Notes under the pieces: model-generated
Seen by the model: only the letters and a program-made list of their open reading frames with translations
What the model was told of the DNA's origin: nothing
Databases searched by the model: none
Part shown: piece by piece, positions 24,255 through 53,002 of the stretch
How the letters are laid out: every line of letters begins with the position of its first letter
How positions within the stretch are numbered: the first letter of the stretch is position 1
Position numbers and translations under genes: made by a program
DNA from: a virus
IMG/VR virus record: IMGVR_UViG_3300030107_006644
Coordinates: 62,001-126,000 of that record
DNA: 64,000 bases
Strand: one strand, 5' to 3'

Positions 24255-24262
24255 CTATTTAT
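24255..24262 (+). promoter_or_regulatory. CTATTTAT motif, candidate late promoter for the scaffold-capsid unit
   Basis: The motif sits in the 123-base gap before the scaffold gene, 64 bases from its start. The same word recurs in gaps before other virion genes (28366, 28663, 31445, 39722, 52995, with variants at 36981 and 41611). Confidence 0.45.
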
Positions 24263-24279
24263 TTGTGATAAAACAATTT

Positions 24280-24301
24280 TATATACGACGAAACGTATAT
24301 A
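24280..24301 (+). promoter_or_regulatory. perfect inverted repeat before the scaffold gene
   Basis: TATATACG and CGTATATA form an 8-base perfect inverted repeat around ACGAAA, lying between the CTATTTAT motif and the scaffold start. It could be an operator or an RNA hairpin in the leader. No T-run follows, so it is not a normal terminator. Confidence 0.5.
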
Positions 24302-24326
24302 GTACAATTTGGATCGGGAGAAAATA

Positions 24327-25574
24327 ATGTCTACAATGCTGGAGCAAGCGATAGTTGATGCGAAAGCGCTGAAAGAAGCCGCAGTTAAGAGTGCTGAACA
24401 AGCGATAATAGAAAAATACGCACCTGAAGTTAAACAAGCTGTTGAGAGTTTGCTTGAGCAAGGTCCGCCACCGGGAATGCCGATGGATCCCATGGGGATG
24501 CCCCCCGGAGATCCGGCTATGATGGGTGGTATGCCAATGGATCCCATGGGGGCGCCTCCTCCTGCCCCCGGCGCGGGAGCCGATCCGGCCGCCGCCATGG
24601 GTTCTCTCGTTCCACCCCCTGTTGCAGGCACGCAAGGAGAAAATCTTTGCCCCTGCCCCGAAGAAGGTAAACCCGTGAATCTTGATTTGACACAGCTGGT
24701 CCATGCAATAAACGGAGAAGCAGCTATGCAAGATGCAGCTATGGGAATGGCGGCCGGCGGAATGCCTCCAATGCCTCCCGGCGGAATGCCTCCAATGCCT
24801 CCCGGAATGGGAATGGCACCTCCCCCAATGCCAGCCGCAGGACAGAGCCCGATGGCTCCCGGTGGCGGAATGGGCTTACCGCCCGGAATGATGGCAGAGG
24901 GTCAAGTCCTCGCTCTAACGCAAGAGGCTTTACAAGAAATCATTGATGAGTCCAACGACCTCGGTATTGACGAGGAAATGTTGAGCAGCATCGCAGAAGA
25001 AGTTATGGCCGGCCTTAAGGAAGAGGCCAACTTCGAAACTAGAGCAAACTTTAGTTCTCCCTCGACAGGTATGGGTGGAAACACCACGCCAGTCGGAGTT
25101 CACCAAGAGGCTGATGATATCGCATGTGCAGAACTCGCCTTGGCTGAGAAAAATGAAGCTCTCCGTCAGGACAATACGAATATCAGAGAATATGCAATTG
25201 CTCTAGAGCAAAAAAATGAACAGATTACCCAAATGTTACAGCATTTAAATGAGAGGTTGTACGTAGTTAACCTTTCGAATGCTAAACTACTATACACGAA
25301 CCGTGTCTTAAGTGATAACTCCTTGAATGAGCGGCAACGCATAAAGATTGTCGAAACCATCTCAAAGTCCGGTTCACCCGAAGAGGCGAAAGCACTTTAC
25401 GAAACTCTTCTAAGCGCAGTGGGGACACAAGTCAAACCTAAAAAGACTCCCAAATCACTTCGTGAAGCAGTCAGTAGAGACCGGTCTCTTCAGATGCCGA
25501 GAAGGCAAAAACCAAGTTCTCCCGATGCGAAAGCTATGGATAGAATGAGGATGCTTGCTGGTATCAAAAAGTGA
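24327..25574 (+). CDS. 22: prohead core scaffold protein (gp22-like)
   Basis: Scaffold proteins form the core around which the gp23 shell assembles. The start ATG follows CGGGAGAAAATA; an upstream in-frame TTG is ignored. Of 415 residues, the N-terminus is helical (AIIEKYAPEVKQAVESLL), then comes a long Gly/Pro/Met-rich region (~residues 45-195). The C-terminal half is helical with NLSNAKLLYTNRVLSD, LNERQRIKIVETISKS and EEAKALYETL, the pattern of scaffold proteins in T4-like marine phages. It ends with DRMRMLAGIKK. The gene directly precedes the major capsid gene, as in T4. Confidence 0.75.
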   Translation: MSTMLEQAIVDAKALKEAAVKSAEQAIIEKYAPEVKQAVESLLEQGPPPGMPMDPMGMPPGDPAMMGGMPMDPMGAPPPAPGAGADPAAAMGSLVPPPVAGTQGENLCPCPEEGKPVNLDLTQLVHAINGEAAMQDAAMGMAAGGMPPMPPGGMPPMPPGMGMAPPPMPAAGQSPMAPGGGMGLPPGMMAEGQVLALTQEALQEIIDESNDLGIDEEMLSSIAEEVMAGLKEEANFETRANFSSPSTGMGGNTTPVGVHQEADDIACAELALAEKNEALRQDNTNIREYAIALEQKNEQITQMLQHLNERLYVVNLSNAKLLYTNRVLSDNSLNERQRIKIVETISKSGSPEEAKALYETLLSAVGTQVKPKKTPKSLREAVSRDRSLQMPRRQKPSSPDAKAMDRMRMLAGIKK

Positions 25575-25605
25575 AAACGACAAATAAAAGGAGTAAAATT
25601 ACAAA

Positions 25606-27516
25606 ATGTCTGTATTACAAAAACTAACCGAGGGGATTGTTGACAGAGATCTTGGAAAGGAAGGCGCCGCCCTGCTTAGTAAGTGGGAACGTACCGGTCT
25701 TTTAGAGGGTCTTAACAATGATCATACTCGTTCTAGCATGGCTAGACTGCTTGAAAATCAAGCAAAGGAGCTTCTCCGAGAGGCTTCTACTATGGCCGGC
25801 GGTGACGTTGAAGGCTTCGCATCTGTTGCGTTCCCGATTGTCCGTCGTGTCTTTGGAGGCCTTATCGCCAACGATCTGGTTTCCGTGCAGCCTATGAGCT
25901 TGCCTTCTGGTCTGATCTTCTTCTTAGACTTTCAGGTCACACCCGGTACCGCTCCTAGACTTGGCGCCAGCGATGACGATTCGTTATTCGGCGGTGGCCG
26001 CGTCGGTTCTGCAATCACTGGCGGTGTCAGTCTCGTCGACAATGACATTGAGAAGGGTTTCTACAACCTTAATCAAGGTTATTCGTCTCCGACTGGATCG
26101 CTTCAGCTTACGCTGGTTCCGATTGCTTCCGGTACTGTTGGTAGTGGTATCCTTGATGATGCCGTAGGGGCAGTGTCCCACTCTAGCTGGAAGAACAGCA
26201 AGGCAACCTCGCTTAGCGAGCTTTGCCAGTACGATCCCGATCTTTCTGGATCTTGCGTTGTTGTTGCAACCGCTGCGGGTAATGCCCTTCTGGGCGCAGC
26301 CGGCACTGGTAGTTTGAATCGTGATAACTTAGTTGCGATGATGATTTCATACAATGCATCGGATACCGCCTCCGCAGATGGTCTCTATACGGGTGTCGGA
26401 GGTGCTGCTCGCATGCATCGTCGTCTTACTCGCTTAGTCGGCAGATCTGCAACCACTGCTGAGTACAGCAACCAAGCTTTGGATCCGGGTGATAGCACCA
26501 ACACATCTCTTTTGTTCGTGTTTGAGTCTACGGGTTCGGCAGCCGGCGCAGGAGCTACTGCGGTCAGTCATGAGACAGGCCTCAAGAACCTCTTGACTCG
26601 GGTTGGTTCTGGTGCAAGTGCTACGGTTAGAGCCAAGGCTTTCGACTATCCAATTAGAGATAATCTCAACAATGTTGGAGAAAGAGCACTTGGATCGCTC
26701 GTCGGTGCTGACCAGTGGGGACTGGAAGCCAATGAGGAAATCCCTGAGATCGACATCAAGGTCGATTCCGTGGCGATTACCGCTGTAACCAAGAAGCTCA
26801 AGGCCAAGTGGACGCCTGAGTTGGGACAGGATCTTAATGCCTATCACAACTTGGACGCCGAGGTTGAGTTAACCGGTATTCTTTCCGAGCAGATTGCGCT
26901 GGAGATTGATCGCGAAATCGTGAACGATCTTGTTGTCAACGCATCGGCTGGAACGTACTACTGGTCTCGTTCGCCCGGTATGTTCCTTCGCAGGGACACT
27001 GGTGCTGAGATTGGAGCTAGCTCTGCTGCTCCGGACTTCACCGGTACCGTTAGCGAGTGGTATGAGACTCTTGTCGAAACCATCAACGATGTGTCTGCAC
27101 AGATTCACCGTAAAACTCTCCGTGGTGGAGCAAACTTTATCGTCTGCGGACCTGAAGTTGCTAACATCCTTGAGTTCACCAGTGGATTCCGTGCCAACAT
27201 CACTCATGATGATGACAAGGGAACTGTCGGCGCTGTGAACGCTGGCTCTATCTCGAAGAAGTGGGATGTCTGGGTTGACCCATACTTCCCCCGCAACGTG
27301 ATCCTTGTGGGTCGCCGTGGTAACAGCTTCCTTGAGAGCGGCTATGTTTACGCTCCGTATGTACCACTGCAGACTACCCCCACAATCTTCGGAACGGAAG
27401 ACTTCGTGCCACGTAAGGGTGTTATGACCCGCTACGGCAAGAAGATGGTCCGTCCTGATATGTATGGGCTAGTTATTGTTCGCGGTCTACTTGGTGAGGC
27501 TGGCGCTACAAGCTAA
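25606..27516 (+). CDS. 23: major capsid protein (gp23-like)
   Basis: This builds the hexamers of the head. At 636 residues it is longer than T4 gp23 (521). It keeps LLSKWERTGLLEG at residues 23-35, FPIVRRVFGGLIANDLVSVQPM at ~76-97, KLKAKWTPELGQDLNAYHNLD and SGYVYAPYVPL near the end. The propeptide is probably removed after Glu59 in ELLREAST, a [I/L]-x-E site as used by gp21; T4 gp23 is cut at a similar place (residue 65). Strong codon bias and a good ribosome site (AAAAGGAG) fit very high expression. A terminator follows. Confidence 0.96.
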   Translation: MSVLQKLTEGIVDRDLGKEGAALLSKWERTGLLEGLNNDHTRSSMARLLENQAKELLREASTMAGGDVEGFASVAFPIVRRVFGGLIANDLVSVQPMSLPSGLIFFLDFQVTPGTAPRLGASDDDSLFGGGRVGSAITGGVSLVDNDIEKGFYNLNQGYSSPTGSLQLTLVPIASGTVGSGILDDAVGAVSHSSWKNSKATSLSELCQYDPDLSGSCVVVATAAGNALLGAAGTGSLNRDNLVAMMISYNASDTASADGLYTGVGGAARMHRRLTRLVGRSATTAEYSNQALDPGDSTNTSLLFVFESTGSAAGAGATAVSHETGLKNLLTRVGSGASATVRAKAFDYPIRDNLNNVGERALGSLVGADQWGLEANEEIPEIDIKVDSVAITAVTKKLKAKWTPELGQDLNAYHNLDAEVELTGILSEQIALEIDREIVNDLVVNASAGTYYWSRSPGMFLRRDTGAEIGASSAAPDFTGTVSEWYETLVETINDVSAQIHRKTLRGGANFIVCGPEVANILEFTSGFRANITHDDDKGTVGAVNAGSISKKWDVWVDPYFPRNVILVGRRGNSFLESGYVYAPYVPLQTTPTIFGTEDFVPRKGVMTRYGKKMVRPDMYGLVIVRGLLGEAGATS

Positions 27517-27544
27517 TCAGCTAGAAACAAGTAAAGTAAAGTTA

Positions 27545-27573
27545 AGCCCCCGGCTAGAAAGTCGGGGGCTTTC
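27545..27573 (+). terminator. Rho-independent terminator after the major capsid gene
   Basis: AGCCCCCG and CGGGGGCT form a perfect 8-pair GC-rich stem around a 10-base loop, followed by TTTCCT. It lies 29 bases past the capsid stop. Confidence 0.88.
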
Positions 27574-27586
27574 CTATTGGTGAGCA

Positions 27587-27622
27587 CTACTTAGGGGTGA
27601 GAGCAGGTGTATGCTTGCTCTC
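27587..27622 (+). promoter_or_regulatory. CTACTTAG motif and hairpin in the leader of the next capsid-region gene
   Basis: CTACTTAG (27587-27594) is a variant of the CTATTTAT motif, placed just after the terminator. Directly downstream GAGAGCA and TGCTCTC (27599-27605 and 27616-27622) can pair in the leader. The promoter reading is weak. Confidence 0.35.
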
Positions 27623-27657
27623 GCTTGTTTAACATATTATATAAGGAGGAAAAAAAT

Positions 27658-28293
27658 ATGGGAGGAAGAAGATTATCTTCTGGCAGGATTGAAAACTTGC
27701 TAGAAAACATGAAGAGAGAGCTTAAATTTAAGCCTAGCACTAAATTAAACTGGGAGGCGCAAGATGCCAGCAATTCGGGGGAATATACCCACGGAGCAGG
27801 CATGGTCGGTACAGGTGGATCGTGCGAAGTTTTTGTTCACGAAGTGGGCAAAGATATCACCACGACTGTCGAGATCGATTTAACTGGCCTTAAAAAGAAA
27901 AGTGATGTAGGTGATGCTATTGGTGTCGATGGCACTGACGGTTCTTATTTGTTTCAGTACAAAGCGGCTACTCACGGTATTCTTTATAGAATTGAGGTTA
28001 TTTGTATTGAGTTGCCCACTGCGGCTAGTAACGTGCTTTTGGATTTTGACATTATTTCGCAATCCGCAGCGGATGTTGCGTATGATGATGACGTTTCTGG
28101 TGGTACCGCGCTGTTCGCGATGGCTGGCAATATTGCAAAAGGTTCAATCTTGAGCGACGAAGCTATTGGTACGCAGCCAACGGAAAGCCACTATGTGTGT
28201 CTTGCCGATGGAGCCACATCGACAGCTGCTGACGTTTTTACTGGTGGAAAACTTGTTATCAAGTTCTACGGCAGACACGACATCAACACTTGA
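27658..28293 (+). CDS. probable capsid accessory or decoration protein, 211 aa
   Basis: The ATG follows AAGGAGGAAAAAAAT, an ideal ribosome site; upstream in-frame starts are ignored. A basic N-terminal helix (RRLSSGRIENLLENMKREL) is followed by a beta-rich domain with few charged residues. It lies between two strong terminators just behind the major capsid gene, so it forms its own highly expressed unit. This suggests an abundant head protein such as a vertex or decoration protein, though I recognise no specific family. Confidence 0.65.
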   Translation: MGGRRLSSGRIENLLENMKRELKFKPSTKLNWEAQDASNSGEYTHGAGMVGTGGSCEVFVHEVGKDITTTVEIDLTGLKKKSDVGDAIGVDGTDGSYLFQYKAATHGILYRIEVICIELPTAASNVLLDFDIISQSAADVAYDDDVSGGTALFAMAGNIAKGSILSDEAIGTQPTESHYVCLADGATSTAADVFTGGKLVIKFYGRHDINT

Positions 28294-28326
28294 TCTCTTT
28301 GATCAAATTAAACCTTTAAAGTTTTG

Positions 28327-28354
28327 CCCCCCTTCTTCGGAAGGGGGGTTTTTC
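28327..28354 (+). terminator. strong terminator with UUCG tetraloop
   Basis: CCCCCCTTC (28327-28335) pairs with GAAGGGGGG (28340-28348) around the stable loop TTCG, followed by five Ts and TTCC. It ends the unit of the preceding gene. Confidence 0.93.
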
Positions 28355-28365
28355 CTTTTTGGCAA

Positions 28366-28373
28366 CTATTTAT
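28366..28373 (+). promoter_or_regulatory. CTATTTAT motif, candidate late promoter
   Basis: It lies between the terminator and the next gene, 20 bases before its start. A promoter is needed here because the previous unit has just been terminated, which supports the reading. Confidence 0.55.
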
Positions 28374-28393
28374 TACAACAAGGAGGCCATATT

Positions 28394-28624
28394 ATGGGCA
28401 AAAAAAGACGAATTATGAACAGCAATAAGTTTAAGAGTAAAAACGCTTATCTTAGAGATGCACTGGTTAGAACTAGAGAATTATCTGAAAGGGTAGAAGA
28501 GGTTGCAGAGGCAGTAGTGGCTCCGAAGCCGAAGGTTGTAAAGCCAAAAGCTACCAAGAAAGCTAAGAGCACTAAAACGAGCACGACTCGACACAAGACT
28601 ACAAAGACCGCCAAGGCAAAATAA
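28394..28624 (+). CDS. small Lys/Thr/Pro-rich protein with histone H1-like tail
   Basis: The ATG follows AAGGAGGCCATATT, giving 76 residues. The first half is a charged helix (NKFKSKNAYLRDALVRTREL), and the second half is a low-complexity basic tail with KPKVVKPKATKKAKSTK and further Lys/Thr repeats, like the C-terminal tails of H1-type DNA-binding proteins. It is expressed as its own late unit between capsid and neck genes. It may bind DNA inside the head, like an internal protein. The role is inferred from composition. Confidence 0.6.
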   Translation: MGKKRRIMNSNKFKSKNAYLRDALVRTRELSERVEEVAEAVVAPKPKVVKPKATKKAKSTKTSTTRHKTTKTAKAK

Positions 28625-28662
28625 TATTAATCTATTAATAGGCCGGTTTCCCCTTCGCGCAA

Positions 28663-28670
28663 CTATTTAT
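28663..28670 (+). promoter_or_regulatory. CTATTTAT motif, candidate late promoter for the neck genes
   Basis: The motif is 18 bases before the start at 28689, in the context AACTATTTATGCATAGGAGG. A start of transcription 6-8 bases downstream would leave a leader of about 12 bases with the ribosome site. Confidence 0.5.
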
Positions 28671-28688
28671 GCATAGGAGGATCTATGT

Positions 28689-29960
28689 ATGTCGTACCCA
28701 ACTTTAACACCGACAAGTCAAACAAGCGCGGTGGTATTAACTTCAACCGGCTCAGCAGCGTTGGTCGCAGCATCGTGTCCGTATGGCATTTATACAGGAT
28801 CCGTCGACTTTCTTAGTGGAGCTTCTGAGCAAGTAGCCTATACTTATAAGAAACTTGGCGGTGATATACTCGATATTGAGTTGACTCCCGGCAATGTTTA
28901 CGCCGCATACGAAGAGGCGGTCTTAGAGTATTCATACATAGTCAACATCCACCAATCAAAGAATGTGCTCTCCAATATGCTCGGGGCGACGACAGGTACG
29001 TTCGATCATCACGGAAATATGAAAGACGGCGCACTCAAGACGAGCTTGGGTGACGATAAGGTTGCTTTAAAGTTTCCAAAGTTTAAGTTTACATACGCAG
29101 AAAGAATTGCTGATGCTCTTGCCGGCCGAGCAGGCCTTGGCGACAACAAGACGGAGTACTCTGCCTCGTTCACCACCACTGACAATGTACAAGATTACGA
29201 TCTACAAAGCATCATCTCATCTTCAGCTGCCACAGACACAACTCAAGATTATTATGATAAAGTTGGCAACAAGAAGGTTAGAATTAAAAAGGTTTTTTAC
29301 AAATCTAGCCATGCTATGTGGAGGTTTTTTGGATACTATGGCGGAGTCAACACGGTTGGCAACTTGTCTAACTATGGCATGTACGCCGACGATACAACCT
29401 TTGAATTGATTCCTTCTTGGCATAACCGGCTGCAGGCGATGACATTCGAAGATAATATTTATGTTAGAATTTCGCACTATTCATACGAGATCAAAAACAA
29501 CAAGATAAGACTCTTTCCGGCACCCAGTCCGACAAGCCCCAGTAAAATTTATTTCCAATTCACAGTCGAGGAGGATCCTTGGGAAGAGGAATCGGATAGA
29601 ACAGTCGGCGTCGACGGCGTGAATAACATGAATACGTTGCCTTTTGATAATTTGCCGTATGCAAATATCAACGCAATCGGTAAACAGTGGATCCGAAGAT
29701 TTGCACTAGCTATCACAAAAGAGATGCTTGGACAAGTGAGAAGCAAGTTTGGCTCAATTCCAATTCCGGGCGATCAGGTTCAACTAAATGGGGCAAACCT
29801 GATCCAAGACGGAAGAGCGGAACAGGAAAGTCTGCGCGAAGAGCTTAAAACAACGCTAGACGAGCTTACATATACTGCCTTAAATGACAAGGATGTGCAA
29901 GCCGTCGAAACAACTAACAAGATGCAGGAAAGAATTCCACTGCCAATCATTGTAGGATAA
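28689..29960 (+). CDS. probable neck/connector protein (gp13-like), 423 aa
   Basis: The ATG at 28689 follows AGGAGG; another ATG at 28685 is in a different frame. The segment YKKLGGDILDIELTPGNVYAAY then EEAVLEYSYIVNIHQSKNVL (residues ~55-100) resembles the adaptor/neck proteins of T4-like marine phages, and the C-terminal third has NINAIGKQWIRRFALAITKEM. Gene order (capsid, this, a 162-residue protein, a 302-residue protein, sheath) matches the T4 order 23, 13, 14, 15, 18, so it is the best candidate for gp13. The assignment leans on order and is not proven. Confidence 0.55.
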   Translation: MSYPTLTPTSQTSAVVLTSTGSAALVAASCPYGIYTGSVDFLSGASEQVAYTYKKLGGDILDIELTPGNVYAAYEEAVLEYSYIVNIHQSKNVLSNMLGATTGTFDHHGNMKDGALKTSLGDDKVALKFPKFKFTYAERIADALAGRAGLGDNKTEYSASFTTTDNVQDYDLQSIISSSAATDTTQDYYDKVGNKKVRIKKVFYKSSHAMWRFFGYYGGVNTVGNLSNYGMYADDTTFELIPSWHNRLQAMTFEDNIYVRISHYSYEIKNNKIRLFPAPSPTSPSKIYFQFTVEEDPWEEESDRTVGVDGVNNMNTLPFDNLPYANINAIGKQWIRRFALAITKEMLGQVRSKFGSIPIPGDQVQLNGANLIQDGRAEQESLREELKTTLDELTYTALNDKDVQAVETTNKMQERIPLPIIVG

Positions 29961-29972
29961 GGGAGGTAAGAG

Positions 29973-30461: not shown

Positions 30462-30475
30462 CAAAGGATAAGAAA

Positions 30476-31384: not shown

Positions 31385-31526
31385 GACACGCCATAAACCA
31401 AAAAAAGTAAATAAAGGAATTTTGGATTTTCGCTATCCTATGGACTATTTATTCATGATAGTACAGCATACTAGTAAGAACCAGAATACTAAGTAGCAGT
31501 TAATATTTCAAGGAGACACAAACAGA
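31385..31526 (+). promoter_or_regulatory. leader of the sheath gene with CTATTTAT motif
   Basis: This 142-base gap holds CTATTTAT at 31445-31452, 74 bases before the sheath start, and an AAGGAGACAC ribosome site. No strong terminator hairpin is seen before the motif. Confidence 0.45.
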
Positions 31527-34500
31527 ATGTCAAACACACTTTCAGAATTAAGAGGCCGGTTTAACTTCGTATCTCCGGGTATTTACGTTAACGAGGTCGA
31601 CCAGTCCCAGCCATCGGTTGAGCGGTTGGCCCAAGGCCCGGTTATTATTGGCCGATTCCCCAAGGGCCCCATGATGCGCCCCGTGGTTGTTAAATCCAAA
31701 GCACAATTTATGAGCCTTTTTGGCGCTCCACACCCCGGCGGAGCCGGCGGCGATCCGTGGAGAGGCGATGCTCATGGCGGCCCAACGTATGCCGCATATG
31801 CTGCTGAGGCGCATTTACATTCTGCTGGCGGTACTGCTCCTGCTACAATTTTTAGACTTGCAGGCGAGAAGGCTTCTGGAGCAACTGGCAACTATTCCGC
31901 TGCCGGCTGGACAACCCGAGCTAGTTCTGGTGCCCAAGTTAATCCGAATGCTGCTGTCGCTAGCAACGGTGGGGCTTACGGACTGTTCGTCATGGGTCCC
32001 CCAATGGCCGGCCTAGGCAGCGACTCGCTTAACTTCGGAAGCCTTGGGTGGCAAGGCAGCCACGCCGTCACCGGCACGCTAGCCGCTGTCTTTTATCTTA
32101 CCGAGGGCTCGATTCAGCTTGTTGGTAACGGATATAGTCCCGATGGCACCGTGGGGGATCAGACAGCCAGTCTTGGCTCTCTCATTAGGTCTCACTCGCA
32201 TGTTGGCGGCACCTATTATGATGGTGTCGGTGCGGATGCAGCCCCGTGCACATTTAAATTTAGGGTTTTAAACTCTGCGGGAACTGAAGTTTCGAATCAT
32301 ATTGCATCCTTCATCCCAAGTGCCGATCTGGACTCCTACTCCGGCATAGCCGGCGCACGCGATTCGTTCAACTGCGATCCAACCAAGACCAACGCCAGCA
32401 TCAATACTTCGGCGAACACCAAGACTTACTGGCTTGGCGAGACGTATCAGCAAAGTGTCAAGGACATGGTTTCGCTGACCGGATCCAACGCTGCGGATGC
32501 GGGCCAGCAATGGGGAGTGCTTGTAGCACTACACGACGGTGCCAATAACTTTGCAGATCATCGCGAAGATTGGCAAAACCCTTCAACAGGCTGGTTCTTT
32601 TCGCAGGACCAAGGTGCGTATGCAAGCTATCATGTAAATAACATGGAGAAATTGTTTAAGTTTCACGCGCTTGATCACGGCGAATGGGCCCAAAATAACT
32701 TGCGCATTACGATTAGCAACATTGAGCAATATACCAGCAGCAAGTATAAATATGGAAGTTTCGATGTATCAGTTGAGTCGCTTTTCGGAAGAGAGAGTAG
32801 CGTATCGGTTATCGAAACCTTTTCAAATTGTAACTTAGATAGAAATTCGCCCAACTACATTTGTAAGAAGATTGGTGATAGATACTTAGAGTGGAATTCG
32901 GATGCCAATACCGGCGGGCAACATATTGACAAGGGTAGCGAACAAAACAAATCTAGCTACATTCGTGTAGAAGTTTCGGATCTAGTGAAGTACGGCGATC
33001 CCTCGACACTCCTGCCTTGGGGTGTTTATGGGCCCTCGCGCCTTCGTTCTTGGCATGCCAACTCTGGCTCGTCTGGATTCTTTTCTAGCTCTGCCGGCGT
33101 ATTCAACCCGAGTGAGGTGTCGTGTGAAGGTGTCGCTGGATTCTATGCCACGGGAGATGCTTCGGGAATGCCCGCAACGCACCCCGTTGACTCTACCGTT
33201 TCTGGTGTCGCTGCAACCGCAACAATTACTTTTACTGGCAGTCAAACTGTCAACAGGCTTATAACCATTACATCAGCGGACGGTACCGCGAGAACCTATA
33301 CAGGTAAAACTACAGGAACTCCGGGCTCCAACACCTTTGATTGTAACAATGGTGCCGCAGTTTGCGCGACATCGTTAATGGCTGCGATAAACAACGCCGC
33401 CGGCCATTCGGGCAAAATAACTGCTACGAACCCATCATCGGGCGTCGTACTGTTAACACAAGATGTGGTCGGAATAGCCGGAAACACGACTATAACTAAC
33501 GATTTCGACGCCGCAACTGTGCCGGCAGGATTCTCCGGCGGCTCTGCAGGTGAAATCTGGTTCGGTGCCAGTGGAGCTTCACAGATGAACGGCGCCAACT
33601 TTAAGATTGAATACCCCAGTGTTCGCTTGGTAGCTACAGCCTCTATTGGCGGATCCGGCGATAGATATCACAATAGATTTGGTATCGACTGGTCAGACTA
33701 TACTTTATCAGGCGGAAACCACAAGATGACAAGCACCAATGGTGAAGCAGAACTCAGTGTTGTTGATGCGTTACGCCGACTTCCTAAAGCGGTCGCTGGT
33801 AATAGCCCAGATGATTCTGGCAATGTTGAATACTCTTGGGTGTTCACTCTGGATGACATCGTTTGTAGTAACTCTACCGATACCTCTCCAATTGGCACCT
33901 ATACTTCCGGCTCTCGCGCCGGAGGTACAAGCTATACGGCAGCTAGCGGATCGTCTGCTCTTCTTGATATCGGAGATGGCAAGGGATTCCACCAGTTCAG
34001 CACATGTCTAGCTGGCGGACACGATGGTCTCGATATCTGCGAGAGAGAGCCTTTCAGAAACACGCTTTTGGATGACGCTAGCGGAGACAAAACCGTTATT
34101 GCCATGTATAATACGATGGTCCGTGCGCTAGATACCGTTAAGGATCCGGAGTATGTTGAGTGTAATATTATAACTGCCCCCGGTCTTACGGAAAACAACC
34201 TTACCGACATGTTGATTTCGCATTGCGAAAGTCGCGGTGACGCGTTGGGTATCATTGATGTTGACGGCGGATATATTCCGGGCGGTACTGAGCAGGCCAC
34301 AATCTCGCGAGGCTCCGTAAAGGCTGTCTGGCAGAATATGCGAGACCGCACACTGGACTCAAGCTATGGCTGCGCCTACTATCCGTGGGTTCAAGTTAGA
34401 AGTTCTCAAAACAAGGATAGCGTTTGGGTTCCACCCTCTGTCGTAGCCTTGGGAACAATGGCGTCCTCAACAAAGGCTTCGAAAGTCTGGTTTGCTCCCG

Positions 34501-35021: not shown

Positions 35022-35071
35022 AGATGAAAAACAAAATGCAAGACTATATACAACAAGGAGACATACTATAA

Positions 35072-35752: not shown

Positions 35753-35841
35753 GACGATACGGTAATAAACCTTTAACAAAACGCGCAGCTTACGATATAT
35801 TAATAAAGCTAGCGAAGCACAAACTAAAATACGAGGTATAA

Positions 35842-36708: not shown

Positions 36709-36712
36709 CTAC

Positions 36713-36916: not shown

Positions 36917-36943
36917 ATAACACAACGCGGCGCCGGGGATTTT

Positions 36944-36972
36944 AAGCTGGGATAATTCCCAGCTTTTCTTTT
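36944..36972 (+). terminator. Rho-independent terminator
   Basis: AAGCTGGGA (36944-36952) and TCCCAGCTT (36957-36965) pair perfectly around TAAT, followed by a T-rich tract (TTCTTTTTG). It closes the sheath-tube-hub unit. Confidence 0.92.
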
Positions 36973-36980: not shown

Positions 36981-36988
36981 CTATTTAC
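36981..36988 (+). promoter_or_regulatory. CTATTTAC motif, candidate late promoter
   Basis: This one-base variant of CTATTTAT stands in AACTATTTACTTTAAGG right after a terminator and 15 bases before the next start, where a new promoter is expected. Confidence 0.5.
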
Positions 36989-39721: not shown

Positions 39722-39729
39722 CTATTTAT
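39722..39729 (+). promoter_or_regulatory. CTATTTAT motif directly before a gene without ribosome site
   Basis: Only 7 bases separate the motif from ATG 39737, and no Shine-Dalgarno sequence is present. If the motif is a -10 element, the message starts at or next to the ATG, i.e. it is leaderless. Confidence 0.5.
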
Positions 39730-39736
39730 AGTTATA

Positions 39737-40519: not shown

Positions 40520-40532
40520 GAGATTAACTTAA

Positions 40533-41591: not shown

Positions 41592-41610
41592 ACAATAACA
41601 AAACAGCAAA

Positions 41611-41618
41611 CTACTTAT
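41611..41618 (+). promoter_or_regulatory. CTACTTAT motif, weak candidate late promoter
   Basis: A one-base variant of CTATTTAT lies 18 bases before GTG 41637, in the 45-base gap between two tail genes. Confidence 0.35.
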
Positions 41619-41636
41619 TAACAAGAGGAACTAATT

Positions 41637-41981: not shown

Positions 41982-41986
41982 AGTAG
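41966..41986 (+). other. hairpin over the stop codon of the gp53-like gene
   Basis: CTACTCTA (41966-41973) and TAGAGTAG (41979-41986) pair perfectly around CCTCT, and the stop codon is in the right arm. No T-run follows, so it is more likely an mRNA stability element than a terminator. Confidence 0.4.
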
Positions 41987-42021
41987 AGCAAAGCAAAAGA
42001 CAATTTAAATAGAGAGTTGAT

Positions 42022-45591: not shown

Positions 45592-45639
45592 CGGTACGCC
45601 GGAGCGGACAAATGTTGCTTGAGAACCTAATTACTTATC

Positions 45640-47001: not shown

Positions 47002-48169
47002 TAACAAAGATGAATGCTTGGGTTATTATGCTGATGATAAGATTACGATAGACCAGACGGTACCAGAGAGTCTGTTTCAAACGTGGAACTATTCTGGCAT
47101 TTTATCAGATCGCACAGATATTGAGTACGCAAAGTTGTTTTGCGGAGGCTTGAACTTGGATGAGGCATGCCCAGAAGACTATATGGACAAATGGCTGTCC
47201 ACAAACGAAAGGTTGAAGGCTTACTTTAGATCCTTTATTGAGGCGAAGGTTTCGATGGATGATAACTGCTTTTTTCAGTTAGTGCCTCATACGTTTCTGC
47301 AGCAATACTATGAGGGACGCAATAGAATTACGGAACATGTCTTCGACACGTACCAGAGGCCAGAAAACTACAGCTTCTTGGTGGAGTTGTCGAAAATGAC
47401 CACAGAAATATCTAAACAAAGGATCAACGTTGATCACGCTAGATTGGTCGAGTATATGCACACAACTGCAGGCCGAAATTTTGTCAACAAGATCAAAAGA
47501 ACAGAGCCATACTGCAAGTACAACATATTTGGCACAAAGACCGGTCGACTGTCTACTGCTAAAGATAGTTTCCCCATTCTGACGATGAATAAGTTGTTTA
47601 GGGGAATCATAAAAGCCAATAATGATTTTCTTATCGAACTCGACTTTAATGCTGCAGAGTTGCGTACTCTTTTATCGCTCTGCGGAGAAGACCAGCCGCA
47701 AGAAGACTTGCATGACTGGAATCTCAAAAAGCTATACAAGGGGAAGGGCACCAGAGAGGAGGCAAAGAAGAAGATCTTTGCTTGGCTCTACAATCCGGAC
47801 TCTGAAGCGGGAGTGGCGGATAAATTTTATGATCGCGAGTACGTAAAGATGATTTACTGGAACAAGGACAAAGTTCACACTCCGTTTCAAAGAGTGATAC
47901 CTTGCGATGAACACCACTCTATTTCCTACATCATACAAAGTACGTGTTCTGACAACACCTTAAGGCAGATGATAAAGCTATGGAAACTTCTTGAGGGGCG
48001 CAAGTCTTATGTAGCTTTCACTATGCACGATAGCGTAGTTGTTGATTTTTCGAAGGAAGACCGAGATCTTCTATATGACATCCTTATGGAATTTAGAGAA
48101 ACCGATCTGGGCGAGTATGTCATTAACGTCAAGTGTGGCGAGAACTACGGAGAAATGAGGGAACTATAA
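46979..48169 (+). CDS. compact family-A-type DNA polymerase
   Basis: Residues 180-360 carry the family A polymerase motifs: TGRLSTAKDSFPIL; motif A LDFNAAELRTLL (D222, E227); motif B TREEAKKKIFAWLY with R259, K263, F267 and Y271 at the spacing of E. coli Pol I R754, K758, F762 and Y766; and motif C FTMHDSVVVDF (H350, D351). In motif C the usual acidic residue after D is Ser, and motif B has Asn for Gly after Tyr. At 396 residues it lacks an exonuclease domain and most of the thumb. T4 itself uses family B gp43. Translation starts at ATG or GTG 46979/46982 after GGAGG. Confidence 0.82.
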   Translation: MVLFQVIDNKDECLGYYADDKITIDQTVPESLFQTWNYSGILSDRTDIEYAKLFCGGLNLDEACPEDYMDKWLSTNERLKAYFRSFIEAKVSMDDNCFFQLVPHTFLQQYYEGRNRITEHVFDTYQRPENYSFLVELSKMTTEISKQRINVDHARLVEYMHTTAGRNFVNKIKRTEPYCKYNIFGTKTGRLSTAKDSFPILTMNKLFRGIIKANNDFLIELDFNAAELRTLLSLCGEDQPQEDLHDWNLKKLYKGKGTREEAKKKIFAWLYNPDSEAGVADKFYDREYVKMIYWNKDKVHTPFQRVIPCDEHHSISYIIQSTCSDNTLRQMIKLWKLLEGRKSYVAFTMHDSVVVDFSKEDRDLLYDILMEFRETDLGEYVINVKCGENYGEMREL

Positions 48170-49023
48170 TGAATCTAATAGCACTAGGAGATACAGCAAC
48201 TAAAATAGCGGAGGCCTTTTTACAATACCCTCAGTACAAGGTGCGCACAATTAGTTCGTCGCAGAATACCAAGACGCCCCATTATAAGTTGTCTAGTTTT
48301 TCAACACCGGAAGAGTATGAGGAGCGTTGCCCCATGCAAGAGATAGGATTCTTTCTTGGAAACGTTGAAGCTGAAACAATCTTTGTTACATGCGGTGCAG
48401 ATTATGAGTCTGCGTGCTCTTTGCGTATCCTTGAGCAGGTGACCAAGGGATCCTCTGTAAAGGTTTTATATATTGAACCAGAGGTAGAGACTTTGCAGGA
48501 TACTGCAATCTTATTAGAGAGAAGTGTCCGGTCGGTTCTGCAGGAGTATGCTCGTTCCGGAGTGTTCAGTGAAATAGTGCTTGTCTCTGTGCCTCAAGCC
48601 CGCTTAGTACTCGGAGATGTGTCGATCTTGGAGTACGAACAAAAGCTAAATGAATTGGTGGCATCCACGATTCACATGATAAACGTTTTTAGGCATTCGG
48701 ATCCGATATACAATAGCCAACTTAAACATAAGGATGTTTCAAGGATCTCTACTATTGGCATGGCCTCGCTTAAAAATAATGAAGAAAGTTTGCTTTACCC
48801 CCTTGACAACGTGAAGGAAAAGAGATATATTTATTCTATATCCAAAGATTCGTTGGAGAACGACAACAAGCTTATGAGCAAGATAACAGAGCAGGTCAAA
48901 AATTCTGCAGAAAAAGATAAAATAAAAGCTGGATTTGAGGTATACTCATCAGAGTACGATGACAATTATGTGTACGTGGTAGCGCGTACATCTTTTATAC
49001 AAGAACAGTGGGAGAAAGCATGA
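48169..49023 (+). CDS. divergent FtsZ/tubulin-like protein
   Basis: The start overlaps the polymerase stop (TAATG). The 284-residue protein follows the FtsZ fold order: an N-terminal strand and loop (MNLIALGDTATKIAEAF), a VTCGADYESACS segment at residues 73-84 where FtsZ has its GGGTGTG loop, KVLYIEPEVETLQDTA, a long central helix (ERSVRSVLQEYARSG), and a C-terminal domain with DVSRISTIGMASL and a final YVYVVARTSF strand. The glycine-rich GTP loop is degenerate, so GTP binding is doubtful. The fold is inferred from motif order and not tested. It is made next to DNA polymerase, so it may organise replication or DNA position. Confidence 0.55.
   Translation: MNLIALGDTATKIAEAFLQYPQYKVRTISSSQNTKTPHYKLSSFSTPEEYEERCPMQEIGFFLGNVEAETIFVTCGADYESACSLRILEQVTKGSSVKVLYIEPEVETLQDTAILLERSVRSVLQEYARSGVFSEIVLVSVPQARLVLGDVSILEYEQKLNELVASTIHMINVFRHSDPIYNSQLKHKDVSRISTIGMASLKNNEESLLYPLDNVKEKRYIYSISKDSLENDNKLMSKITEQVKNSAEKDKIKAGFEVYSSEYDDNYVYVVARTSFIQEQWEKA
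48803..48831 (+). promoter_or_regulatory. sigma70-type promoter inside the FtsZ-like gene
   Basis: TTGACA (48803-48808), 17 bases, then TATATT (48826-48831). It shares TTGACAAC and GATATATTTAT with the promoter at 49553. It is placed to serve the two small genes from 49020 about 190 bases downstream. Confidence 0.65.
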
Positions 49024-49274
49024 AAACATACACCGGCGTTTTTATAAAGAAGAACGGTGAAGAAAGAGAGATGAACTTCGTTAAGGTAGAAGACCTGCCA
49101 AGCGAGTTCTTGGAAACCAAGATTACTGGCAAGCGAAAGAAGGTCAACTTGTCGGAAGGTTTGGAGTTGGTTTGGGATCTGGAACATTCTGAGTTTCGAA
49201 TCTTTAACTGGAACACAGTAAGGGGGAATGTAGTTGAAAAAGATCTGGAAAACGATACAAGATTCTTGGTTTAG
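49020..49274 (+). CDS. small SH3-barrel-like protein
   Basis: ATG 49020 overlaps the previous stop (ATGA) behind GTGGGAGAAAGC. The 84-residue protein (YTGVFIKKNGEEREMNFVKV, DLPSEFLETKITG, SEGLELVWDLEHSEFRIFNW) has the strand pattern of small phage proteins described as SH3 beta-barrels with a conserved W-D and FNWNTV end. Function unknown; it may bind nucleic acid or protein. Confidence 0.6.
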   Translation: MKTYTGVFIKKNGEEREMNFVKVEDLPSEFLETKITGKRKKVNLSEGLELVWDLEHSEFRIFNWNTVRGNVVEKDLENDTRFLV

Positions 49275-49563
49275 TCTTTGCTTTAAGATTGCATGGCTCA
49301 ACTGGACGAAGATACTAAAGGTATTGCTCGCCATCGTTCTTACGCTGGCGCTAGTTGCTGCTCTGTACTTTGGGTTCGACCAAACTTATAAGACAGGTTT
49401 TGATCGTGGCAGATCCGCAGGCCAGTGTGAGGTAGCTTGTGCTACATTCGGCGTCAGCTATGGTCAGGTCACGGATGAGGGAGACTGTTGGTGCAAGATT
49501 GCAGACGGAAATTATTGGTATCTTCCTTTATCAGAAAAGTTTGAAAAAGAGCTTGACAACTAA
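49234..49563 (+). CDS. small membrane protein with Cys-rich periplasmic end
   Basis: The start is TTG 49234 behind AAGGGGGAATGTAG, inside the end of the previous gene. The 109-residue protein has a basic, Trp-rich N-terminus, one transmembrane helix at residues ~27-46 (VLLAIVLTLALVAALYFGF), and a periplasmic part with four cysteines (CEVACATFG, DCWCK) that may form disulfides. Such small single-pass proteins may affect the host envelope or superinfection. No family is recognised. Confidence 0.6.
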   Translation: MKKIWKTIQDSWFSLCFKIAWLNWTKILKVLLAIVLTLALVAALYFGFDQTYKTGFDRGRSAGQCEVACATFGVSYGQVTDEGDCWCKIADGNYWYLPLSEKFEKELDN

Positions 49564-49581
49564 ACCAAAGTAGGATATATT
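49553..49581 (+). promoter_or_regulatory. sigma70-type promoter of the gp32 gene
   Basis: TTGACA (49553-49558) and TATATT (49576-49581) with a 17-base spacer, a near-perfect consensus. It lies 80 bases before the ssDNA-binding protein gene and overlaps the end of the previous gene. Confidence 0.85.
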
Positions 49582-49587
49582 TATAGA

Positions 49588-49661
49588 CAGTAGAGCGAAA
49601 TATTTGTCGTTCTAACTTTAGGCTAAACAGCCACAACCATTAAAACAAGGAGAAAATAATA
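49588..49661 (+). promoter_or_regulatory. leader of the gp32 gene
   Basis: The predicted mRNA has about 74 bases before the gp32 start, with an AAGGAGAAAA ribosome site. In T4 the gp32 leader has a pseudoknot for autoregulation. I see an AT-rich GCGAAATATTTGTCG segment but no convincing pseudoknot. Confidence 0.3.
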
Positions 49662-50438
49662 ATGGCAATTGACATGAAGAAAATTCGAGCCCGCAAGGTG
49701 GCTCTTGAGAGTCGAGGAGGGGGGTCGTCTAACTTTTGGCGTCCGCAAGATGGCGAACAGACAATTCGTATCGTCCCGACTGCGGACGGAGATCCTTTTA
49801 AGGATTATTGGTTCCACTATAATGTTGGAAACAACTCGGGCTTTTTGAGTCCCAAGAAGAACTACGGAGAAGACGATCCTCTTGATGCGTTTGTCCGTAA
49901 GCTTTTCAATGAGGGCACGGAGGACAGCGTGAAGATGGCCAAGAGTCTTATGGCTCGCCAACGTTTCTTTGCTCCCGTTATTGTGCGGGGTGAGGAAGAT
50001 AAAGGTGTGCGAGTCTGGGGATTCGGCAAGACTGTGTACGAGCAGTTGATTAATCTCGTACTAAACCCAGAGTATGGAGACATCACAGATTCGGATACGG
50101 GTACGGATTTGGTTCTCCATTATGGCAAGCCCCCGGGCGCGTCATTTCCACTCACCAAGATCACTCCCCGGCGCCGCCCAAGTGTGTTATGCGATGAGGC
50201 CGTAGGAGGATCCGCTCGGTGTGCTGAGCTGTTGGAAAATATTCCAGACTTTACCAATCTGTTTGAGCGTAAGACTCCTGCAGAGGTCGGTGGATTGCTG
50301 GATGCTTTCCTGCTCGGGGATGACGGTGCGGAGGAAAACTCCACTGAGACCACTAAGTATGGTGGTACCACGGAGACTACTCCCCCGACTACGACGAGTA
50401 GCGTAGATCGTGCGTTCGATGAGCTAATGAGCGTTTAG
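49662..50438 (+). CDS. 32: single-stranded DNA-binding protein (gp32-like)
   Basis: This protein coats single-stranded DNA in replication, recombination and repair. The 258-residue product has a basic N-terminus (MKKIRARKVALE) for cooperative binding, then SNFWRPQDGEQTIRIVPTAD, FHYNVGNNSGFLSPKKNYG and MARQRFFAPVIVRGEED, the gp32 core pattern. The T4 zinc-binding residues are not evident. After residue ~218 comes an acidic, Thr-rich linker ending VDRAFDELMSV, the partner-binding tail. It has its own strong promoter and terminator, as expected for a protein made in large amounts. Confidence 0.88.
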   Translation: MAIDMKKIRARKVALESRGGGSSNFWRPQDGEQTIRIVPTADGDPFKDYWFHYNVGNNSGFLSPKKNYGEDDPLDAFVRKLFNEGTEDSVKMAKSLMARQRFFAPVIVRGEEDKGVRVWGFGKTVYEQLINLVLNPEYGDITDSDTGTDLVLHYGKPPGASFPLTKITPRRRPSVLCDEAVGGSARCAELLENIPDFTNLFERKTPAEVGGLLDAFLLGDDGAEENSTETTKYGGTTETTPPTTTSSVDRAFDELMSV

Positions 50439-50455
50439 GGCTGCTGTCCCACAGG

Positions 50456-50489
50456 GAGGCACAGGGTTATCAGGTGCCTCACTTTTTTT
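50456..50489 (+). terminator. Rho-independent terminator after the gp32 gene
   Basis: GAGGCAC (50456-50462) pairs with GTGCCTC (50474-50480), followed by ACTTTTTTT. A strong T-run makes this convincing. It separates gp32 from uvsX. Confidence 0.88.
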
Positions 50490-50505
50490 AACCAAAGAGG
50501 AATGA

Positions 50506-51618
50506 ATGGCTAGGACCAAAAATAAGGCCGGCAAACTTTCCATTGCCGATATGCGCTCGCTGATTAACAAGAAGGCGGGCCAAGTTGTAGCCCACAACTT
50601 AAACGAGGAGAATCCAACCGAAGTTGTTGACTGGATTCCGACTGGCTCTCGCTGGCTGGACTCCATTACATGTCGCGGCAGACTGGCTGGGATTCCCGTG
50701 GGTAAAATTGCTGAAATCGCAGGACTAGAAGCTACTGGTAAATCATATATGGCTGCACAAGTGGCGGCCAACGCACAGAAGATGGGTATTGACGTGGTGT
50801 ATTTTGATAGCGAGTCCGCTATTGACCCGTCGTTCCTTGAGCGCGCCGGCTGTAAACTAGATGAACTACTATATGTGCAGGCTTCTTCTGTAGAATTCGT
50901 ATTGGAAACCATTGAAGAACTGTTGGGCTCCAATGATAATCGCATGCTGTTTGTATGGGATTCGTTAGCCCTGACCCCATCGGTTTCCGATGTTGAGGGA
51001 GACTTCAACCCTCTCTCGTCCATGGCGGTTAAAGCCCGCATCTTGGCTAAGGGAATGTCTAAGCTCACAGTACCGATTGCGAACTCTCAGAGCACGTTCC
51101 TTGTACTCAACCAGCTTAAGACTAACATTACTCGTTCTCCATCTGAAGCTATGACAACGCCCTATATGACGCCGGGAGGAAAGGCTATGATTTATGCATA
51201 CTCCCTTCGAATCTGGCTCACCGGCCGAAAGGCCAAGGCTAGTTTCATTGTCGATGACAATGGTTATCGAATAGGTTCAGAGGTCAAGGTCAAACTAGAG
51301 AAATCGCGGTTTGGAACGCAAGGAAGGCAGTGCAACTTTAAGATCCTGTGGGGCGATGAAATCGGAGTACAGGATGAGGAGTCATGGTTCGATGCAATTG
51401 CAGGATCGTCCAGACTGCAGCGTTCGGGTGCATGGTATACCCTGTTGGACAAGGATGGCAAGCCTCTTGGCAGCAAATTCCAAGCAACCAAGTGGACGGA
51501 GAGGCTTCAGGATGAAACGTTTCGCAAGACCGTGCTGGATATTATGGACGAAGAGGTGATCTTAAAGTTCGATCAGAGAGTTGGGCCTGCAGAAGAATTT
51601 TACGGAGACGTTGAATAA
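50506..51618 (+). CDS. uvsX: RecA-like recombinase (UvsX)
   Basis: UvsX forms filaments on single-stranded DNA and exchanges strands. The 370-residue protein shows Walker A GLEATGKS (residues 73-80), YFDSESAIDPSF (99-110), Walker B RMLFVWDSLALT (146-157), and the loop region FLVLNQLKTNI then TPGGKAMIYAYSLRIWL, as in T4 UvsX (391 aa) and RecA. ATG 50506 is used; ATG 50502 is in another frame. A hairpin follows the stop. Confidence 0.93.
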   Translation: MARTKNKAGKLSIADMRSLINKKAGQVVAHNLNEENPTEVVDWIPTGSRWLDSITCRGRLAGIPVGKIAEIAGLEATGKSYMAAQVAANAQKMGIDVVYFDSESAIDPSFLERAGCKLDELLYVQASSVEFVLETIEELLGSNDNRMLFVWDSLALTPSVSDVEGDFNPLSSMAVKARILAKGMSKLTVPIANSQSTFLVLNQLKTNITRSPSEAMTTPYMTPGGKAMIYAYSLRIWLTGRKAKASFIVDDNGYRIGSEVKVKLEKSRFGTQGRQCNFKILWGDEIGVQDEESWFDAIAGSSRLQRSGAWYTLLDKDGKPLGSKFQATKWTERLQDETFRKTVLDIMDEEVILKFDQRVGPAEEFYGDVE

Positions 51619-51622
51619 ACCT

Positions 51623-51652
51623 GCTTCTTATTCGTCTAATATTATAAGAAGC
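51623..51652 (+). other. hairpin between uvsX and the His-rich gene
   Basis: GCTTCTTAT and ATAAGAAGC form a perfect 9-pair stem with a 12-base loop. No T-run follows, so termination is uncertain; it may protect the uvsX message or slow the polymerase. Confidence 0.5.
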
Positions 51653-51669
51653 ACCAAAGGAGAACCAAA

Positions 51670-51969
51670 ATGACTTCGTTACTAGCAAGCCTGCTGTTAT
51701 CTACATCAATAAATATAGCCGAGGCTCATCCAAATCGCCACAGGCATCACGCACATCGGCCACACCGGCCCGCTGTACATCGCCCGGTCCAGACCGCCCC
51801 GGTTAGGCCACCTCGTGCAGCAGTCAATCATCGTGTCACGCAACGTCATGGCCATTGGGTATATCCTCACAGTAACCCAGCCTTTATTTGGCGCTACACT
51901 CCCGGCCACTACACTCGCCGAGGAGCTTGGGTACCCGGGCACTGGCGCGTTGTGATTCGATTGCGTTAA
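51670..51969 (+). CDS. exported His/Arg/Pro-rich protein
   Basis: The start follows AAAGGAGAACCAAA. A signal peptide (MTSLLASLLLSTSINIAEA) is followed by a His-rich stretch (HPNRHRHHAHRPHRPAVH), then GHWVYPHSNPAFIWRY, TPGHYTRRGAWVPGHWRVV. The WVPGHW type of repeat occurs in small periplasmic or outer-membrane proteins of proteobacteria. A metal- or surface-binding role in the periplasm is possible. It is a rare type of gene between uvsX and a nuclease, and may be of host origin. Function unknown. Confidence 0.6.
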   Translation: MTSLLASLLLSTSINIAEAHPNRHRHHAHRPHRPAVHRPVQTAPVRPPRAAVNHRVTQRHGHWVYPHSNPAFIWRYTPGHYTRRGAWVPGHWRVVIRLR

Positions 51970-51977
51970 AAAACCAC

Positions 51978-52006
51978 TTGACTTTAGGGCCTCTACATGC
52001 TATTGT
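51978..52006 (+). promoter_or_regulatory. sigma70-type promoter of the exonuclease/RNase H gene
   Basis: TTGACT (51978-51983), 17-base spacer, TATTGT (52001-52006). The predicted start leaves a leader of ~16 bases with GGAGG. Confidence 0.75.
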
Positions 52007-52028
52007 ATAGTGTGTGGAGGTTTTTATT

Positions 52029-52988
52029 ATGAAAAGAGTACTGATTATCGATGCCCTTAATATGTATTTTAGGGCTTACATTGTAGATCCAAGTTTGTCG
52101 ACTAACGGACAGCCGATTGGCGGCGTCAAGGGTTTTCTCAAGATACTGCAGAAGCAGATTAGAGAAAGCAAGCCCGATGAGGTTGTCATCTGCTGGGATG
52201 GCGAAGGTGGAAGCCAACGTCGGAAGAGTCAAGACAAGGGTTACAAGCAGGGTCGCAAACCAATTCGTCTCAACCGGGACATACGCAACTTGTCCGAGGT
52301 TGAAGAAATGGAAAACAAGGTTTGGCAGCAAACACAATTGTTTGAATACTTAAACCAACTACCAGTGATCCAAACAATGCTTCCAGCGGTTGAGGCCGAC
52401 GATGTTATCTCGTTTGTGACCCAATACCACAAGTATGATGACTGGCAAAAGGTTATTGTCTCCTCAGATAAGGATTTCTTTCAGCTTTGCGATGAGCACA
52501 CCGTATTATATCGGCCCATCCAGAAGCAGGTGCTAAATTCGAAGAGGATTACGGAGGATTTTGGCATCCATCCAGTTAATTTTGCTTTGGCTAGAGCTAT
52601 TGTGGGTGATCGTAGCGACAACCTTCCCGGCATTGCAGGTATTGGCTTGTCTACCGTTTCTAAACGCTTGCCGTTTTTAATTGAGGGCAAGTCCTACACT
52701 ATTGATGAGGTTATAGAGTACTGCGAGAACACTGATGCTAAAATTAAAGCTTATGGGACAATTGTAGAGCAACGAGAAGTGATCGAACACAACTATAAGA
52801 TGATGCAACTGTATGCTCCGTCGATTAGCGTGCAAGGCAAGCAAAAAGTGCGCCACGCTCTCGATAACTTTGTTCCAGAACTTAACCAGACTGAGTTCAA
52901 GAAGATGATGGTTAACGATGGCTTCGGAGTGGTCGACTTCTCAGATTTATTTGCATCCATGAAAAGAATTGTGGCCAACAACGCTTAG
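52029..52988 (+). CDS. rnh: 5'-3' exonuclease / RNase H (FEN family)
   Basis: T4 RNase H removes RNA primers from Okazaki fragments. The 319-residue protein has the FEN metal-binding order: VLIIDALNMYFRAY (residues 4-17), EVVICWDGEG (51-60), AVEADDVISF, VSSDKDFFQL, and VGDRSDNLPGIAGIG, the helix-hairpin-helix approach to DNA. ATG 52029 follows TGGAGGTTTTTATT; an earlier in-frame GTG at 52014 overlaps that site and is not used. Confidence 0.9.
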   Translation: MKRVLIIDALNMYFRAYIVDPSLSTNGQPIGGVKGFLKILQKQIRESKPDEVVICWDGEGGSQRRKSQDKGYKQGRKPIRLNRDIRNLSEVEEMENKVWQQTQLFEYLNQLPVIQTMLPAVEADDVISFVTQYHKYDDWQKVIVSSDKDFFQLCDEHTVLYRPIQKQVLNSKRITEDFGIHPVNFALARAIVGDRSDNLPGIAGIGLSTVSKRLPFLIEGKSYTIDEVIEYCENTDAKIKAYGTIVEQREVIEHNYKMMQLYAPSISVQGKQKVRHALDNFVPELNQTEFKKMMVNDGFGVVDFSDLFASMKRIVANNA

Positions 52989-52994
52989 AAATAA

Positions 52995-53002
52995 CTATTT
53001 AT
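52995..53002 (+). promoter_or_regulatory. CTATTTAT motif opening the 53-61 kb cassette
   Basis: The motif lies 6 bases before ATG 53009, which has no ribosome site. It matches the motif before head and tail genes, so the cassette is likely expressed late, with a leaderless or near-leaderless message. Confidence 0.55.

Follow-up and report, generated by a model that had tools for sequence, protein, structure and literature searches.

A short AT-rich sequence, CTATTTAT, is very probably the late switch for the particle genes across a large, mostly uncultured group of marine T4 relatives, and we consider it highly likely to be the core of a late promoter of the gp55 type. It was studied in a 64-kb window taken from the + strand of a 205,517-bp virus record (bases 62001-126000); positions below are those of the window unless the record is named, and genes are named by their first base. 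An earlier note on this DNA had proposed a late promoter that precedes virion genes and reads with them, and that proposal is strongly supported by strand bias and phylogenetic footprinting. We infer late timing from the virion genes that lie downstream.

The window carries a series of head and tail genes, in which gene 24327 occupies the position of T4 scaffold gene 22 when compared with the T4 gene order. In a tree of 17 capsid sequences, rooted at its midpoint and with T4 and RM378 as long branches, the phage and its marine relatives group with RM378, Flavobacterium phage immuto and Microcystis phage Mel-JY01, and a 100/100 branch parts this side from T4 and the cyanophages. The phage is called Far-T4-like because of this placement of its capsid. 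A near-DNA search of INPHARED gave no match. Outside the window, this T4-like phage also encodes a 347-residue GTPase of the tubulin/FtsZ family (record 54222-55265; Pfam PF00091, E=1.5e-7, just below the curated cut-off). A head maturation protease that matches ClpP-like families (phrog_94 and others) lies at record 197854-198468, far from the head gene cluster. Annotated genes of the window are as follows.

5176-6762, +: terminase large subunit
6769-8817, +: portal (phrog_213)
25606-27516, +: major capsid protein (MCP), gp23-like (phrog_138, E=3.5e-70)
from 28689, +: neck/head-tail adaptor gene (phrog_211)
from 31527, +: tail sheath gene (phrog_23)
from 35072, +: tail tube gene (phrog_4542)
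from 41637, +: baseplate wedge gene (phrog_7145)

Occurrence and conservation of the motif

All eight copies of CTATTTAT in the window lie on the + strand (8:0), and 100 dinucleotide shuffles of the window gave a mean of 2.4 sites, none reaching 8. Over the whole 205-kb record the counts were 20 forward and 2 reverse, as compared to 1 and 6 for a control in which the pattern was read backwards. The bias extends to relatives: in 833 kb of sequence from 80 loci that surround related capsid genes, with capsid identities of 60-82%, CTATTTAT is distributed 153:3 by strand and ACTATTTAT 137:0. The T4 core TATAAATA was found in these loci only 10 times on the forward strand, against 153 for CTATTTAT; its single + strand copy in the window, at 32745, lies within the sheath gene. 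In the 100 nt that precede starts, taken over the whole record, the most enriched 7-mer is CTATTTA, ranking above the Shine-Dalgarno sequence AAGGAGA. A position weight matrix (PWM) trained on the relatives found 15 sites scoring at least 16 on the + strand of the record and none on the other, and a strict two-part pattern gave 9:0 (overlapping matches counted). Some of the sites in the record fall inside genes and may be coincidental. When one mismatch was allowed, the count on both strands showed no excess (66 observed, 59 expected), so that variants are credible only through position and footprinting.

The six exact sites that had been reported before 24327, 28394, 28689, 31527, 39737 and 53009 are all present, as are the one-base variants before 37004 and 41637, namely CTATTTAC at 36981 and CTACTTAT at 41611. 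Terminators had been described directly before three of the sites; stems lie there before 28366 and 36981, and a hairpin precedes the variant at 27587. Two further CTATTTAT sites had been missed, at 4387 and 8723, where the motif lies at a gene 3' end just before the next gene. The sites and their flanking features are:

4387-4394, +: CTATTTAT 26 nt ahead of gene 4413, where the upstream gene has its 3' end
8701-8707, +: GGTATTT, upstream of the 8723 site
8723-8730, +: CTATTTAT within the portal gene 3' end, 84 nt ahead of gene 8807
24234-24240, +: GGCATTT, upstream (-35-like) element
24255-24262, +: CTATTTAT (-10-like), putative promoter of 24327 and MCP gene 25606; PWM 21.6
27546-27569, +: terminator-like hairpin, then TTTCC; read from the sequence and absent from the terminator scan list
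27587-27594, +: CTACTTAG before gene 27658; PWM 12.9, orthologs too diverged for footprinting
28326-28349, +: intrinsic terminator (terminator scan) directly upstream of the 28366 promoter
28366-28373, +: CTATTTAT before small gene 28394; PWM 22.9
28663-28670, +: CTATTTAT before neck gene 28689
31424-31430, +: GGATTTT, upstream (-35-like) element
31445-31452, +: CTATTTAT, putative promoter of tail sheath gene 31527
35044-35050, +: CTATATA, probably a weak form of the motif, ahead of tail tube gene 35072
36944-36965, +: intrinsic terminator (terminator scan) directly upstream of the 36981 promoter
36981-36988, +: CTATTTAC before gene 37004
39722-39729, +: CTATTTAT, its C 15 nt before the ATG of gene 39737, no obvious Shine-Dalgarno
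41611-41618, +: CTACTTAT before baseplate wedge gene 41637
52995-53002, +: CTATTTAT 14 nt before the ATG of gene 53009, no obvious Shine-Dalgarno

One additional site, at 3738, consists of CTACTTAA with GGTGTTTT upstream. Its PWM score of 23.2 is among the highest in the record, and it lies within ORF 3525-3917, 172 nt ahead of gene 3910-4413.

The evidence from footprinting is decisive for the motif. Orthologs of individual genes were collected from the relatives, and CTA[TCA]TTA was sought within 170 nt in their non-redundant upstream stretches, against a background of 9% in random stretches. The motif was found before 39/39 orthologs of 24327, 42/50 of 28689, 34/34 of 31527 and 11/11 of 37004, that is, 126/134 for four motif-bearing genes. 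The corresponding figure for four unmarked genes was 5/152, made up of the MCP gene 25606 (2/53), 29973 (1/38), 30560 (0/38) and 35842 (2/23). Having no promoter of its own by this measure, the MCP gene is presumably transcribed from the 24255 promoter, before 24327. At the tail tube gene 35072, where this phage has the variant CTATATA, the motif is present in 20/24 relatives. Conservation does not extend to all of the weaker sites: gene 16430 carries CTATTTAA here, and the motif was found in 0/8 of its orthologs.

Architecture of the probable promoters

An alignment of 152 sites whose flanks are less than 55% identical to one another yields a consensus of three parts: GGnnTTT at about -34 to -28, ACTATTTAT at about -14 to -6, and a purine (GA) 12-13 nt after the C. 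Counted from that C, GGnnTTT occupies -21 to -15, with G at 47-49% and T at 56-69% of the 152 sites; A precedes the C in 83%, T follows CTATTTA in 59%, and positions +12/+13 are G in 43% and A in 58%. In these dissimilar contexts the upstream element and the purine reach z values of about 6-9. The purine is the predicted transcription start, and lies 5-6 nt past the motif, which fits the start 5-9 nt past the motif that the earlier note had anticipated. If +1 is placed at the A, the C stands at -13 and GGnnTTT at -34 to -28; if it is placed at the G, everything shifts by one and the C stands at -12, in agreement with the numbering used for phage Aeh1.

The upstream element forms a sharp peak at -21 from the C. 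In two promoters, 27587 and 28366, it overlaps terminators. The idea that it is a mere tail of upstream terminators was rejected, since the 133 hairpin-free sites show the element at least as strongly, and more sharply. By promoter set it was found in 28/33 orthologous promoters for 24327, 29/33 for 28689, 21/26 for 31527, 9/19 for 35072 and 2/9 for 37004, and it is weak in immuto. A small second GGnnTTT peak is seen at -43/-42 from the C, about 22 bp (two helical turns) further upstream than the main one.

Among 140 non-redundant ACTATTTA sites, 128 have an ORF start within 150 nt, and the distances have a sharp lower edge 24 nt from the A, which would leave a leader of about 10 nt with room for a Shine-Dalgarno sequence. 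Six ACTATTTA sites fall within coding sequence, against 13/21 for the reversed control. Four genes (39737 and 53009 of the window, 177439 and 182044 of the record) start 12-15 nt after the C of the motif and have no Shine-Dalgarno sequence; if these starts have been called correctly, the late transcripts of the four genes would be leaderless. As a general feature, leaderless mRNA was rejected, starts closer than 24 nt being found at only 3/140 sites of the clade. The orthologs of 53009 align only from residue 70 on and those of 39737 mostly from residue ~95 on, and the start codons called for both genes are provisional.

The record also contains a separate promoter class, TTGACW-N17-TATATT, which is common among the small genes of record 158-171 kb and rare at 83-100 kb, the region rich in late sites. 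These opposite distributions are as expected for early and late sets. At record 143-171 kb an early-type sequence, TTGACt-N17-TATATTATagGGGTAA, is repeated before many small genes, with a conserved GGGTAA just downstream.

The gp55-like sigma factor

The earlier note had suggested a search of the rest of the genome for a gp55-like sigma factor, and the same record contains one. A 254-residue ORF outside the window (record 12220-12984) matches phrog_234, the T4 late sigma family, with E=4.1e-7; it begins with TTG, and the true start may lie about 20 residues downstream, as in relatives. Profile comparison with gp55 of T4, S-PM2 and an Ochrobactrum phage gave E=9e-8 over 106 collinear columns, with residues 27-135 aligning with T4 gp55 4-118. 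By its homologous sigma-2 region, the protein is assigned to the gp55 family. It is full-length in 12/12 relatives longer than 100 kb, and CTATTTAT counts in those genomes lean to one strand. More distant homologues, unannotated or called "hypothetical" there, are encoded by immuto (1e-34), Mel-JY01 (1e-27) and LR756508 (8e-35). LR756508 has the sigma with its C-terminal extension, yet its CTATTTAT counts show no strand bias (7:6), so the link between motif and sigma is not a rigid one; AACTTAA was considered as an alternative motif for LR756508 and was not convincing.

In the T4 open complex A-12 stacks on gp55 Y97, A-9 contacts N13 and H95, and A-8 contacts T99 (PMC7892883). At the equivalent positions of the clade sigma, N13 is replaced by T (47/47) and T99 by S (47/47), while Y97 is retained (47/47), and the equivalents of F60 and F106 are likewise conserved. 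H95 is replaced by F, as it also is in cyanophages that use NATAAATA. Among gp55 proteins of 34 T4-group phages and 73 cyanophages, N13 is invariant and T99 is missing from one protein only. The clade promoter has T at -9 and -8, where T4 has AA, and the changed pocket residues together with this TT fit an altered specificity, although the pocket changes may go back to one old event and the covariation then counts as a single data point.

Beyond sigma-2, the clade protein has about 70 conserved C-terminal residues (LKENEKKVLEA...IEIFNKKAIYLYLREITGLNTKQVVNNLNKLR...), ending FKxKWxxGxI. The gp55 proteins of T4 and the cyanophages have no such stretch; immuto and LR756508 conserve part of it. By eye, the stretch IEIFNKKAIYLYLREITGLNTKQVVNNLNKLR resembles a helix-turn-helix (HTH). 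Searches of the extension against Pfam, PDB (by profile) and the RM378 sigma-4 gave no significant match, and its candidacy as a homologue of the sigma-4 region of the RM378 sigma gained no support from profile comparison. No T4-like clamp-binding tail motif was seen at the C-terminus of the clade sigma. Since the 164-residue S-PM2 gp55 also lacks a clear copy of the tail in the alignment, a missing tail is no bar to gp55 homology.

The T4 partners of gp55 were sought by profile. No gp33 (phrog_254) was detected in this record, in three relatives (G001, G003 and G004), in immuto or in Mel-JY01, and no gp45 clamp (phrog_223) in this record, in relative G001 or in immuto; a diverged form is possible in both cases. 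The same profiles found gp33 in T4 (1.6e-33; gene 33 lies at 149.2 kb of T4) and S-PM2 (5e-32), and gp45 in T4 (3e-86) and S-PM2 (4e-79). A search with Pfam Trans_coact gave no match, and the controls were likewise without match.

Proposed readers of the promoter and known late systems

The mechanism that we propose is that core RNA polymerase, presumably that of the host, carries the phage gp55-like sigma, whose sigma-2 domain would recognise ACTATTTAT. Transcription would begin at the purine 12-13 nt after the C. GGnnTTT, whose place some 21 nt ahead of the C corresponds to -35, would be read by the C-terminal extension, which is the most likely reader of this element, although we make the assignment tentatively. 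The late sigma would then be "unsplit", with sigma-2 for ACTATTTAT and a C-terminal domain for GGnnTTT and with neither gp33 nor a clamp; we offer this as a plausible proposal that could well be wrong.

That -35 part of the proposal, and only that part, is rivaled by an ordinary clamp-coupled late promoter of the T4 type with a drifted core. In this reading the gp55-like sigma would bind ACTATTTAT and would be coupled to replication by highly diverged forms of gp33 and the clamp that the searches missed, and GGnnTTT would be a minor contact of a gp33-like protein, alpha-CTD or a phage activator. We regard this as possible but lean against it. The gp55 homology of the sigma speaks for it, as does the precedent of Aeh1, whose late promoter is the C-containing CTAAATA from -12 (PMC1524935); moreover, many of the phage proteins have no family match, so that a diverged gp33 or clamp could hide among them. 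Against it, the gp45 and gp33 profiles that are strong in T4 and S-PM2 find nothing here or in the relatives searched, the sigma has no C-terminal clamp-binding tail like the SLDFLYE of T4, T4 late promoters have no conserved -35, and gp33 contacts the DNA backbone only (PMC2988020, PMC7892883).

Recognition by a host sigma, whether the usual one or an alternative, is improbable: TATTTA does resemble a sigma-70 -10 hexamer, but the record has its separate sigma-70-like class, TTGACW-N17-TATATT, dense at 158-171 kb, and in the late class the core is preceded by a conserved C, with GGnnTTT rather than TTGACA upstream. The location of the motif in the untranslated stretch upstream of starts would also suit an RNA-level element, either a leader processing site or a translational operator (compare T4 RegB/RegA). 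This is very improbable, because the same core stands anywhere from 24 to 140 nt from the start, the flanking conserved signals keep fixed -35 and +1 spacings, and sites follow directly after terminators. Chance, an AT-rich 8-mer in AT-rich gaps, agrees with the lack of excess in the one-mismatch counts on both strands; the strand asymmetry, the flanking elements and the conservation at orthologous gaps leave it a negligible probability.

The phage-sigma promoter can be compared with known late systems. Common to T4 and the clade are an AT-rich core at the -10 position before virion genes, the frame T-A-T-x-x-A-T, and a sigma-2 region that is homologous and collinear over 106 columns. In contrast to the T4 late promoter (TATAAATA, -13 to -6), the clade has TT for AA at -9/-8 with changed pocket residues, and GGnnTTT where T4 has no conserved -35. 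Its sigma has the C-terminal extension in place of the clamp-binding tail, which classical-group gp55 homologues retain (PMC2988020, PMC7892883), and the T4-type gp33 and gp45 that complete the T4 late system with gp55 were undetected in the clade. The earlier note could not have seen these differences. Its label for the motif, "non-T4", is too strong, because the element sits at the position of TATAAATA, shares T-A-T-x-x-A-T, resembles the Aeh1 sequence and comes with a gp55 homologue; the promoter belongs among those of the gp55 late type, as a divergent form that carries an extra upstream element.

Aeromonas phage Aeh1 is a T4-type phage in which both the late promoters and gp55 are divergent (PMC1524935). 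It shares with the clade the C at -12 and the TA..TA frame but keeps AA in its core, and no upstream element is reported in the text consulted. Cyanophage S-PM2, with the late promoter NATAAATA, has a gp55-type late class in a marine T4-like phage, as here (PMC2984593); it differs in its ATAAATA core, in a gp55 without the extension, and in having gp33 and gp45. No relevant account of CTATTTAT or TATTTAT as a phage late promoter was found in the open-access literature searched.

The MCP of the clade groups with that of RM378, one of the Far-T4 phages, which also comprise uncultivated clades. A genomic survey of Far-T4 phages reported the T4 core transcription-regulation genes as undetected (PMC4360716), whereas a gp55 homologue and its likely promoters were found in this analysis. 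RM378 itself has a sigma factor with regions 2 and 4, at 981-1580 of the RM378 stretch examined, close to the capsid gene. Gaps in RM378 contain TATTTAA(A), 12:5 by strand, which hints at a different late sigma in that phage.

Far-T4 phages occur widely, and hardly any are in culture. The analysis supplies their missing late sigma, a "hypothetical protein" in immuto and Mel-JY01. The two-part promoter consensus permits operon calling across the group. A standing question, why T4 shares out its late sigma between gp55 and gp33 and couples it to the clamp, becomes testable, since in the clade a sigma of this kind seems to make a -35 contact in place of that arrangement. If the proposal is true, the unsplit sigma could represent a state of the T4 late system, ancestral or alternative, in which the division between gp55 and gp33 had not yet taken place.
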